In this document: piece by piece, positions 60,248 to 64,000 of the stretch | Position numbering within the stretch: position 1 is the stretch's first letter | How the letters are laid out: every line of letters begins with the position of its first letter | Assembly (NCBI GenBank): GCA_029264305.1 | Contig: JARICA010000019.1 | Location: 20,894-84,893, forward strand | Source of the DNA: Faecalimonas sp. | GTDB lineage: Bacteria; Bacillota; Clostridia; Lachnospirales; Lachnospiraceae | DNA length: 64,000 bases | Direction of reading: 5' to 3' | Made by a program: the position numbers and the translations under genes | The notes under the pieces: generated by a model | The model's input: the letters and a program-made list of their open reading frames with translations, nothing else | What the model was told of the DNA's origin: nothing | The model's database searches: none

Positions 60248-60771
60248 ACGGAGGTAGAATGAAACTGAAAAAAATCGTTCGAAAGATATATGAGTTGAGA
60301 GAAGAATGGAAATATGATTTTTATGAATGTGTGCAGGATATTGCAGAACATCCAGTAGTGTTGCGCATGAAGTTGTATCCACATCACGGAACAACAAATT
60401 GCTATAAACATTGTATGAATGTGGCATACTATAATTATCAATGGTGTAGATTTTTTCATTTAGATGCGAGGTCGGCAGCTAGAGGTGCTATGTTACATGA
60501 TTTGTTTTTGTATGATTGGCATACGCATGCGGCAAAGACAGGAGATAAATTTCATGGATTAACACATCCGAAGACTGCTTTAAAAAATGCGGAAAAATTT
60601 TTTGTATTAAATAAAATAGAAAAGGATATTATATACTCTCATATGTGGCCGGTAACTTTGTTTAGGTTTCCGAAAACAAAAGAAGGATTTATTACGACAT
60701 TAACAGACAAATATTGCGGTGCTTGTGAAAGTAGTAAAAGAAGAAAAAGGGAGAAAAGACGAGAAAAATAA
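60235..60771 (+). CDS. HD-domain phosphohydrolase
   Basis: RGAMLHDLFLYDWH and other HD-type His residues (HHGTTNCYKHCMNV). Confidence 0.8.
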   Translation: MYFFNGGRMKLKKIVRKIYELREEWKYDFYECVQDIAEHPVVLRMKLYPHHGTTNCYKHCMNVAYYNYQWCRFFHLDARSAARGAMLHDLFLYDWHTHAAKTGDKFHGLTHPKTALKNAEKFFVLNKIEKDIIYSHMWPVTLFRFPKTKEGFITTLTDKYCGACESSKRRKREKRREK

Positions 60772-60788
60772 AAATCTCGTCTTTTTTT
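60753..60788 (+). terminator. rho-independent terminator
   Basis: aaagacgagaaaaataaaaatctcgtctttttttg. Confidence 0.8.
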
Positions 60789-60894
60789 GTGGATAAAAGT
60801 CGAAATTTTTCAAAGACAAGATGACAATTTCCGATAAAATAAATATTTTCTATATGCTAGTATGAAGAAAAATATGCGAATGAGGTGAAAGGTT

Positions 60895-61884
60895 ATGGAA
60901 AGAAAAATTCCCAAAAATGTGAGGCAAATAGGAAATGTGAGTGATTCTTTAAAGATTTATGTAGAAGATTATGTCGATACATATTTAAACCAACTTTGTG
61001 AAAAAGAAGCAGAAAATCCAGTGGGAGCATTTTTGATAGGAGATATTGTTAAAGAGGAAGAACTAGAATATCAGTATATCTATGGAGCGATACAGATGGA
61101 AGAACTTAGACAAAATGAGAATGGTATTTTTGTCGATGAAGAAACGTGGGAAAATGCTTGCGAAGTATGCCGTACATTTTTTGAAAATGGAGAAATTATA
61201 GGCTGGTTTGCCGCCATACCAGGAATTCCTTTTGCTATGAATGGAAATTTGAGGAAAGTGCATCAAGACATATTTGCGAAAAATAAAGGGATTTTTATTT
61301 TAAAAGATCCTGTTTGCAAGGATGAAATGTATTTTGCTCCTAAATTTAACGATTTAATGCAGATGAATGGACATTATATTTATTATGAAAAAAATCCATC
61401 TATGCAAAATTACATGATTTCTTCTCGCAAAAAGATTGGCGTTACACCCAGTGAAATTGTTGTGGATAGGGCTGCAAAAAGTTTTCGCGATTTAGTGCAG
61501 AGCAAAATGCTACAACAAGAGAAAAAAGAAGTAAATAAATGGGCATATGGAACGGTAACTTTTCTTATATTAGTTGTTTTGATCATAGGGGTGACAATGA
61601 TTAATAATTATGACAGGATGAAATCGGTTCAAAAAGCAATAGAAACGATTTCTAATTCTGTTGAAGAAAAGAAAACGACAAATAAAAAAGAAAAGCAAGA
61701 AAAAAAGATTGAGAAAAAAGAAAAAGAGGAAAAAAATATTTATATTGTAGAAAAAGGAGATACGTTGGAAAAAATTAGCAAAAAAGCGTATGGTGATATC
61801 CAACATATTGAAGAAATAAGCGAAACAAATGGTTTGGAAAATGGAAATTTGATATACATTGGGCAAAAATTATTGCTACCTTAA
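60895..61884 (+). CDS. single-pass protein: cytosolic MPN/JAMM-like domain (degenerate), TM helix, C-terminal LysM
   Basis: LysM: YIVEKGDTLEKISKKAYGDIQHIEEISETNGLENGNLIYIGQKLLLP; TM VTFLILVVLIIGVTMI; N-terminal GAFLIGD...IIGWFAAIPG...HQDIFAKNKGIFILKDP. Confidence 0.7.
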   Translation: MERKIPKNVRQIGNVSDSLKIYVEDYVDTYLNQLCEKEAENPVGAFLIGDIVKEEELEYQYIYGAIQMEELRQNENGIFVDEETWENACEVCRTFFENGEIIGWFAAIPGIPFAMNGNLRKVHQDIFAKNKGIFILKDPVCKDEMYFAPKFNDLMQMNGHYIYYEKNPSMQNYMISSRKKIGVTPSEIVVDRAAKSFRDLVQSKMLQQEKKEVNKWAYGTVTFLILVVLIIGVTMINNYDRMKSVQKAIETISNSVEEKKTTNKKEKQEKKIEKKEKEEKNIYIVEKGDTLEKISKKAYGDIQHIEEISETNGLENGNLIYIGQKLLLP

Positions 61885-61936: not shown

Positions 61937-63052
61937 GTGGAAGGGGTAAAAAGTAAAAAAAAATTTGTAAAATGGTTTGGGATTATAATGTGTATAGTCC
62001 TTTTTGCTGGAATAGTGGGATATATTTTTTTGACTCATAGAAAGTATGATAAGGTTCATATTTTGCATACAACAATGCTTGAACATGAAAAAGGAGAAAA
62101 TTATGTAGAGTTTTCGGGAGATATTTTAAAATATGGAAAAGAAAGGGTTTCTCTTTTGAATAAGAAAGGAAAAGCAAGGTGGAAATTTTCGTATCAAATG
62201 CAAAATCCGGTTGTTAGTGTGAATGAAGAAACAGCGGTAATTATTGATAAAGGAGCGAATGATCTTGTGATTTTGCAAAAACAAGGGGTAATAGGAGAAA
62301 TTCATACAACTCTTCCGATGAGAAAAGCAGAAGTTTCTAATCAAGGGATCGTAAGTGTTATATTAAAAGGAGAGTCTTCTGAAAAAATTGTTTGTTATGA
62401 TGCAAAAGGGAATCTTCTCGTCGAAAAGAATGTATCTCCGACAACTACAGGATATCCACTAGATATTGCGATTTCGGATGATGGCTATACATTGCTCGTA
62501 TCGTATTTGTTTACGCGGCAAGGAAAAGTAGAAACTAAAATAGTACACTATAATTTTGCTGAAAAAAAAGATAAACATCTTGTGTTAGAAGAAAAATATG
62601 AAAATGTTGTGGCACCAAGTGTGTTCTTCGTAGATGATAAGACGGCAGCAGTTGTTATGGATAATCAATTACATATTTATGAAGAAAAGGAAAAACCACA
62701 AAAAAAGGCGACAGTAAAAATAAAAGATAGAATAGAACGGATCTTTTATGACCATGAGTATATTGGTTTGTTGTTAAAAGGAGAAAAAAATTATTTTGTA
62801 AAACTATTTGATAAAAATGGAAAAGAATTGCTTTCGGAGACAGTTGAACATGGATATAAAAATATAAAAGTGGAAAAAGGACAGATTCTTATGTTCGATG
62901 GGAAGAAATGTGAAATTATTACGAAAGCAGGGGTAAGATTGTTTGATGGAGAAGTGGAAAATGATATTTCAAATATAATTTCTACGTTTGGTGTAAATAA
63001 ATACTTGATGATAAATGCAAATGGTCTAGAAGAAATTAGGCTTGCAAAATAG
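61937..63052 (+). CDS. DUF5711-like membrane-anchored beta-propeller protein
   Basis: N-terminal TM followed by repetitive beta-rich WD-like sequence; upstream of cvpA-like. Confidence 0.6.
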   Translation: MEGVKSKKKFVKWFGIIMCIVLFAGIVGYIFLTHRKYDKVHILHTTMLEHEKGENYVEFSGDILKYGKERVSLLNKKGKARWKFSYQMQNPVVSVNEETAVIIDKGANDLVILQKQGVIGEIHTTLPMRKAEVSNQGIVSVILKGESSEKIVCYDAKGNLLVEKNVSPTTTGYPLDIAISDDGYTLLVSYLFTRQGKVETKIVHYNFAEKKDKHLVLEEKYENVVAPSVFFVDDKTAAVVMDNQLHIYEEKEKPQKKATVKIKDRIERIFYDHEYIGLLLKGEKNYFVKLFDKNGKELLSETVEHGYKNIKVEKGQILMFDGKKCEIITKAGVRLFDGEVENDISNIISTFGVNKYLMINANGLEEIRLAK

Positions 63053-63060
63053 GAGAAAGT

Positions 63061-63780
63061 ATGAATTGGTTATTAATTGGAGTGGGAATCCTCTTTTTTA
63101 TTTGCATGGTGATCGGATATATTAGAGGGTTTATTAAAATTATTGTGTCGTTTGGGACAACTGTTGCAAGTGTTGTGCTTGTCATTTTTCTGACGCCTTA
63201 CACGAGTAAAGCAATTGTGGCTTTAACTCCTATAGATGAAATGGTACAGAAAAAATGTATCTCGATGATGTCTGTTGAAGGAATAGATCAAAATATATCA
63301 GAAAAATTTTTGAATAAAATAGAGTTGCCTAGGCAAAAACAAATAGAAATTTTAGAAAAAGCGGATATACCAGAGTTTGTAAAACAAGGTTTGATAGAAA
63401 ATAATAATAATGAAGCATATAAACAACTTGGCGTTGAGAATTTTGTTGATTATATAGGAGCATATGTGTCTGGGGTTGTTGTAAAAATAATTTCGTTCTT
63501 ACTCACATTTCTTATTGTTATTATTTTTATACGAGCGATTATATTTGCGTTGGATGTTATTGCAGCATTACCTGTGTTGAATGGACTGAATCGCATTGCT
63601 GGTATGTTTGTAGGAGGACTGATAGCGATTATTTTTACATGGCTTGTTTTTCTTGCTCTTACATTACTATATGATAGTTATATAGGAGTGGAAGGATTTA
63701 GGTGTATAGAAAGTAGCAAACTCTTAACGTTCTTATATGAGAAAAATGTGATACTTGATTGGGTCACAAAATTAAGATAG
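63061..63780 (+). CDS. CvpA family membrane protein
   Basis: Four hydrophobic helices; LIGVGILFFICMVIGYIRGFIKIIVSFGTTVASVVLVIFLTPY; LNGLNRIAGMFVGGLIAIIFTWLVFLAL. Confidence 0.85.
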   Translation: MNWLLIGVGILFFICMVIGYIRGFIKIIVSFGTTVASVVLVIFLTPYTSKAIVALTPIDEMVQKKCISMMSVEGIDQNISEKFLNKIELPRQKQIEILEKADIPEFVKQGLIENNNNEAYKQLGVENFVDYIGAYVSGVVVKIISFLLTFLIVIIFIRAIIFALDVIAALPVLNGLNRIAGMFVGGLIAIIFTWLVFLALTLLYDSYIGVEGFRCIESSKLLTFLYEKNVILDWVTKLR

Positions 63781-63907: not shown

Positions 63908-63936
63908 TTGACATATGTAGAATAGAATGATATTAT
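63908..63936 (+). promoter_or_regulatory. strong sigma-A promoter, probably of a downstream rRNA operon
   Basis: TTGACA - 17 bp - TATTAT, preceded by A-tracts. The A-rich upstream motif recurs at the window end. Confidence 0.6.
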
Positions 63937-64000
63937 AGACAAGCACTCGAGAGACGAGCCAACAAGTCAAAAACAAATTTCAAAAAAATGAAAAAAGTTG

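Follow-up and report, generated by a model that had tools for sequence, protein, structure and literature searches.

A putatively inactive MPN domain joined by a transmembrane helix to a LysM domain in Lachnospirales

JAMM (MPN-plus) proteases such as Rpn11, AMSH and the archaeal CsRpn11 (JAB, PF01398; Prok-JAB, PF14464) have counterparts without the catalytic residues, the MPN-minus domains. In eukaryotes the latter are subunits of larger complexes, and their mechanistic role is debated (PMC3431379). Bacterial operons with JAB, E1 and E2 proteins have been described (PMC1779556), as have the Bub operons (PMC13373217); the former paper makes no mention of LysM. We found no description in the open-licence literature of a JAMM or pseudo-JAMM domain coupled to a transmembrane (TM) helix and a LysM domain, although absence there is not proof. 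Here we analyze a protein of this kind encoded in a 64,000-nucleotide stretch of Faecalimonas sp. DNA (the window; contig JARICA010000019.1). An earlier note had proposed a pseudo-MPN domain tethered through the membrane to a LysM domain and knew of no earlier description of such an architecture; none of the papers that we found reports one. Its interpretation is largely right, but it missed the intact JAMM-TM-LysM proteins of ubiquitin-like operons, the operon with DUF5711 and CvpA, and an inverted pattern of conservation. Its hint at the cortex and at sporulation finds no support in the present analysis.

The gene spans positions 60895..61884 on the forward (+) strand, to which all window coordinates below refer, and encodes 329 residues; position, length and strand of the open reading frame were verified. 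It is present in a single copy in its own 1.95 Mb genome. Reading of the sequence reveals a ribosome-binding-like stretch (GAGGTGAAAGG, 60882..60892; GAGGTG) 5′ of the ATG at 60895. Further upstream, a hairpin (AAGACGAGA/TCTCGTCTT) followed by a T-run (60756..60783) is the likely terminator of the preceding gene. Its loop of 10 exceeds the limit of the scanner, hence its absence from the terminator scan. Because this hairpin appears to end the upstream gene, the pseudo-MPN gene probably begins a new transcript.

The protein consists of a predicted pseudo-MPN (MPN-minus) domain (residues 1-181; 60895..61437), a TM helix at about residues 217-239 (61543..61611), assigned by hydropathy and a charge tally over 70 homologues, a charged spacer (residues 240-282; 61612..61740) and a LysM domain (residues 283-329; 61741..61881; PF01476, E 2.9e-8). 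The TM helix is the only strongly hydrophobic segment. The spacer is rich in Lys and Glu, and its length and sequence vary among homologues. LysM scores 33.9 bits against a Pfam cut-off of 20.9 and is present in 40/40 homologues scanned, so the earlier reading of one helix, a Lys/Glu-rich linker and a LysM domain holds. Weak Pfam matches of the linker to DUF6377, NOP19 and MAP17 look like TM or coiled-coil composition and were rejected. Lys and Arg are more frequent on the N-terminal than on the C-terminal side of the helix in 70/70 homologues (mean 7.4 vs 2.5). This supports the N-in/C-out orientation suggested previously, with the MPN domain in the cytosol, by charge bias only; with the same reservation, the protein qualifies as a LysM-type cell-wall protein, defined by an extracytoplasmic LysM over the Pfam cut-off. 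It shares the C-terminal peptidoglycan-binding LysM with membrane proteins of the YneA and SafA type, but differs from them in its N-terminal pseudo-MPN domain, and their NCBIfam models score far below their cut-offs.

The earlier note had recognized a JAMM/MPN layout in the N-terminal part and proposed AlphaFold and Foldseek as a check that could refute it. The AlphaFold2 model (61 homologues in the alignment; pLDDT 86.3, pTM 0.81) confirms a predicted MPN fold: the top Foldseek matches in the PDB are all MPN proteins, namely Rpn11 (E 3.4e-10, probability 1.00), Rpn8, CSN6 and eIF3F. Over residues 1-212 the sole Pfam match is JAB, below threshold (17.1-18.4 bits, cut-off 22.5); 29 of 61 homologues match it too, with a best E of 3.8e-5. 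A PDB search with the family profile retrieves CSN6, Rpn8 and eIF3F, and nanobodies and crystallins too, which we consider chance matches via a shared GW motif. Since such motifs can score by chance, we do not rely on this search for the fold. Sequence intermediates form a continuous chain to JAMM proteins with an intact EHHSD site, so that homology is direct. By predicted structure and alignment, the domain thus fits the definition of MPN-minus, an MPN fold without the JAMM motif.

The former JAMM loop can be aligned gaplessly with an intact relative (GWIHTHPDFGIFLSENDKFIQQNFF over GWFAAIPGIPFAMNGNLRKVHQDIF), which allows the catalytic positions in the window protein to be named. All five are lost: E42, H106, H108, S116 and D119 correspond to P42, A106, I108, N116 and L119. 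Replacement of HxH and alteration of the S/D motif had been noticed before; the catalytic Glu is gone as well. Among 70 homologues, position 106 is never His and position 119 never Asp (0/70 each), while Glu occurs at position 42 three times, His at 108 five times and Ser at 116 four times. These tallies depend on the alignment, which may be wrong for individual rows in the variable loop; even so, no row contains HxH there (0/70). The motif is likewise absent in 80 loci from named genomes (0/80), nearly all Lachnospiraceae, which may partly overlap the 70 homologues. In the alignments, no Lachnospirales homologue has a different conserved active site, so the second proposed check, a comparison of homologues, did not refute the claim either. 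What remains of the loop and helix 3 (residues 103-127; 61201..61275) is G103-W104 in 70/70, H123 in 65/70 and F127 in 69/70 homologues.

Of the features that define a JAMM metalloprotease, the fold is met by prediction, whereas the E, HxH, S and D residues and the Pfam score are not. Judged from sequence, the MPN domain is catalytically dead across Lachnospirales; loss of zinc binding and of isopeptidase activity is inferred from this. With MPN-plus proteins the window protein has in common the predicted fold, the GW motif, the order of strands and helices, and the conserved H/Q and F positions of helix 3; it departs from them in the five catalytic positions, the subthreshold Pfam score and the attached TM helix and LysM. 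It resembles Rpn8, CSN6 and eIF3f, which are among its best structural neighbors, in having an MPN fold without JAMM residues and a presumed scaffold role. Unlike these, it is bacterial and membrane-anchored, has no identified MPN-plus partner and is presumably not a subunit of a PCI complex; PCI proteins are not expected in bacteria. Its MPN-minus state presumably arose independently.

Outside Lachnospirales, many relatives are likewise arranged as JAMM-TM-LysM and have their EHHSD site intact; several of them exceed the Pfam cut-offs for both JAB and LysM. On present sequence evidence, JAMM-TM-LysM is a wider Bacillota architecture, which is new here. In nine genomes, one of them represented by a small contig that shows the operon only in part, an intact JAMM shares its operon with a YukD-type ubiquitin-like protein (Ubl), a ThiF-type E1, an E2 and a Prok-RING protein. 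The E2 is sometimes fused to FHA, and a trypsin-like protease is often present. Four such operons from Clostridia have two JAMM-TM genes, with LysM on the second where it is complete and absent from the first. One locus (L092, 4244-11347) comprises two JAMM-TM genes, Prok-RING, trypsin, an E2 fused to FHA, E1 and YukD with a zinc ribbon; PADLOC recognizes only its E1 and JAB proteins, and weakly. The Lachnospirales family profile matches an operon JAMM (L079) at E 3.8e-27; together with the tree, whose deep support is weak, this satisfies our test of sequence kinship. Lachnospirales and operon proteins share a homologous MPN domain, the JAMM-TM-LysM order and an LPxNxxxxG N-terminal strand. 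What sets the operon JAMMs apart is that they retain both EHHSD and accompanying conjugation genes, each of which the Lachnospirales protein lacks.

Further lineages show partial or complete degeneration, for example HxC with retained E, S and D, or no HxH beside flaG-fliD. The former is seen in two JAMM-TM-LysM genes (L093, 5991-7160; L094, 704-1870) with HTC for HTH, possibly an altered metal site. The latter are degenerate JAMM-TM-LysM genes near flaG- and fliD-like genes (L095, L096 and L100, families f72 and f84); Pfam confirms FlaG and FliD in L096. In a tree built without the catalytic columns, for which no root was inferred and in which some rows are long, the Lachnospirales rows form one clade (100/99) placed next to the operon JAMMs with weak deep support (57/87). 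A single clade of all degenerate rows is rejected (AU p 0.0002), so, provided that an intact site is the ancestral condition, it was lost at least twice. That direction, loss rather than gain, is argued from the many intact relatives and is not demonstrated. The site is intact in 13/13 operon rows vs 12/26 other rows from outside Lachnospirales, with too few independent pairs for a test.

Within the order, the protein is widespread. A query with the MPN part alone was positive in 140/196 Lachnospirales genomes (114/152 good ones); a full-length count of 199/299 was discarded, as such queries also catch unrelated LysM proteins. Scanning contigs with a single protein as query gave no match, and with an alignment it gave >550 relatives. 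Carriers among gut Lachnospiraceae include Mediterraneibacter, Faecalicatena, Coprococcus comes, Dorea and [Ruminococcus] torques. Outside Lachnospirales, relatives are sparse: 15/245 genomes of a class sample were positive, five of which are Lachnospirales, and a broader profile found 26/391 in a class sample and 23/300 in a phylum sample, Lachnospirales members included. Phage records contained no relative of the LysM-bearing operon JAMM, and no PADLOC model exists for the window protein.

The gene is followed on the same strand by one for a DUF5711 protein (61937..63052; PF18975, E 1.8e-106) and, 8 bp beyond it, by one for a CvpA (Colicin_V) family membrane protein (63061..63780; PF02674, E 1.8e-13). 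DUF5711 is encoded downstream, in the same orientation, in 67/70 loci, with varying upstream genes, and in 80/80 named-genome loci; it is present in 186/196 Lachnospirales genomes. CvpA occupies the corresponding position in many loci. These operon partners belong to families of unknown and partly known role, respectively. No functional paper on DUF5711 was found in the open-licence literature, where absence is again no proof, while CvpA of enteric bacteria is required for deoxycholate resistance (PMC6705877). The AlphaFold2 model of the DUF5711 protein (pLDDT 94.4) has one N-terminal TM-length helix and an all-beta propeller whose nearest Foldseek match is BamB (4imm, E 2.8e-11). DUF5711 also exceeds its cut-off in Methanosarcina acetivorans, a control genome. 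Sixteen DUF5711 loci seemed to lack the pseudo-MPN gene; in four of them the gene is diverged or shortened, and others are genuinely without it and keep DUF5711, usually with CvpA. Because some genera keep DUF5711 and CvpA alone, the pseudo-MPN protein is not essential to the pair. In two closed relatives the operon directly precedes an rRNA operon (L269, 3158-7501; L271, 1-4867), in which the 5S gene stands between 16S and 23S, an unusual order. An adjoining rRNA operon would explain the many contig breaks near the pseudo-MPN gene; in the window the contig ends after a strong promoter-like site (63908-64000).

Conservation is distributed differently in the operon JAMMs and in Lachnospirales. 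In 13 operon JAMMs, the loop at residues 103-122 is the most conserved stretch measured, with an entropy of 0.54 bit vs 1.43 overall. In Lachnospirales this is reversed and the loop is the most variable part (2.28 bits vs 1.85 overall). Here, the most conserved parts are the N-terminal strand (0.53 bit vs 1.28 in operon JAMMs) and the C-terminal motif (0.91 bit vs 2.05), including YEKN..MQ.YM. The N-terminal motif, PKNVRQIG (residues 6-13; 60910..60933), is kept family-wide, with P6 in 69/70, N8 in 67/70, Q11 in 69/70 and G13 in 70/70 homologues and a mean entropy of 0.50 bit over residues 9-13; within the C-terminal motif, GHYIYYEKNPSMQNY (residues 159-173; 61369..61413), the YEKN turn averages 0.36 bit. 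Four genera have a deletion that extends from the catalytic loop through helix 3, and keep the helix-1 and Y/F-x-x-N-x-x-M-like motifs. Three of these core-deleted forms (G022, G198 and G060) still have the TM helix and LysM. The fourth (G467) keeps the TM helix, and its reading frame as found stops before any LysM, near an apparent inserted element. In this locus (L258, 3137-4177) a transposase-like reading frame lies between the shortened MPN gene and DUF5711 and may have cut off the LysM part. Since the terminal motifs are retained in the deleted forms, these appear to be a natural deletion experiment in which the groove is dispensable and the terminal patch is not.

The alternative that survives best, which we nevertheless consider unlikely, is that the protein is a plain LysM tether in which only the TM helix and LysM matter and the MPN domain is a decaying passenger. 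Deletion of the core in four genera, three of which keep TM and LysM, and loss of the entire gene from some genera are consistent with this. However, the terminal MPN motifs are more conserved (0.36-0.9 bit) than the TM helix or LysM (1.7-2.0 bits) and survive in the deletion variants. In archaeal CsRpn11, helices H1 and H4 make the homodimer (PMC6043591), and for this reason a pairing surface is a reasonable guess for the terminal motifs. It is not a result, and conservation, which in H1 and H4 is concentrated at the helix starts, is suggestive only; the surface was mapped by secondary structure alone.

Somewhat less plausible again is a pseudo-deconjugase that still binds Ubl or its conjugates at the membrane, as a reader or sink rather than an eraser. 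Homology to the JAMMs of Ubl operons favors this, as does the pairing of MPN-minus with MPN-plus domains in ubiquitin pathways elsewhere (PMC3431379). On the other hand, a query with the operon E2 found none in 196 Lachnospirales genomes (0/196) and detected 5/5 operon genomes as a control, and the window protein's own genome lacks YukD. A role in Ubl conjugation in Lachnospirales is therefore unlikely as far as gene content can tell. Ubl, E1 and E2 genes are also absent from the neighborhood, so the genomic company that marks an operon JAMM is missing. Moreover, no part varies more than the loop of the substrate groove, which is missing altogether from four genera.

We give still less credence to the idea that the old groove now hydrolyzes or binds something else, H123 being the key residue. 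This His also occurs in several other degenerate lineages, but His or Gln is usual at the aligned position in intact relatives too, which makes it look structural; the loop has no second conserved polar residue, and the core deletions remove the site. That the N-terminal domain is not an MPN fold at all is scarcely credible: the subthreshold single-sequence Pfam score and the nanobodies that score alike leave room for chance, but every best Foldseek match is MPN and the intermediates to intact JAMMs are unbroken.

The reading we prefer, which we consider probable in the absence of any experiment, is that of a retired transmembrane Ubl-deconjugase that now serves as a wall-anchored scaffold together with DUF5711 and CvpA. 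It starts from what was computed, that is, the fold prediction, dead site, architecture, topology bias, operon, relatives and conservation shift; its functional part is inferred. A dead JAMM/MPN domain would sit at the cytosolic face of the membrane, connected by the helix and charged spacer to a LysM that binds peptidoglycan outside, a binding assumed from the LysM family without binding data. The protein would descend from, or share an ancestor with, an active membrane-anchored JAMM-TM(-LysM) deconjugase, a type that would survive in the YukD/E1/E2/RING operons of other Clostridia. By the inferred polarity of loss, the Lachnospirales ancestor would have lost its connection to the operon, together with the full set of five catalytic residues. 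Selection may then have shifted to a binding surface that combines three motifs: PKNxRQIG in the N-terminal strand, YxEDYV where helix 1 starts and GYYIYYEKNxxMQxYM in the strand-turn-helix-4 segment. By inference from the pairing of MPN domains, this surface would self-associate or bind a partner. An envelope complex with DUF5711, the membrane-anchored propeller, and the polytopic CvpA is likewise inferred; it would couple the wall to the membrane's cytosolic side.

More tentatively, and with doubt prevailing, wall-anchored JAMM-TM-LysM deconjugases in Bacillota, some of them with YukD, E1, E2 and RING, may have been retired repeatedly into non-catalytic scaffolds between wall and cytosol, and in Lachnospirales the retired form may have joined DUF5711 and CvpA as a component of the envelope throughout the order. 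If true, protein modification and the cell wall would be connected through such wall-anchored deconjugases. Membrane-anchored, often LysM-bearing deconjugases are placed in bacterial ubiquitin-like systems, and envelope-near targets become a question. The Lachnospirales protein would be a bacterial, order-wide counterpart of the dead MPN domains that eukaryotes keep as scaffolds, and it can be compared with relatives in the intact, intermediate and dead states. For the gut Lachnospiraceae, it adds a conserved, as yet unnamed protein that putatively spans the wall and shares its operon with DUF5711 and, in many cases, CvpA.
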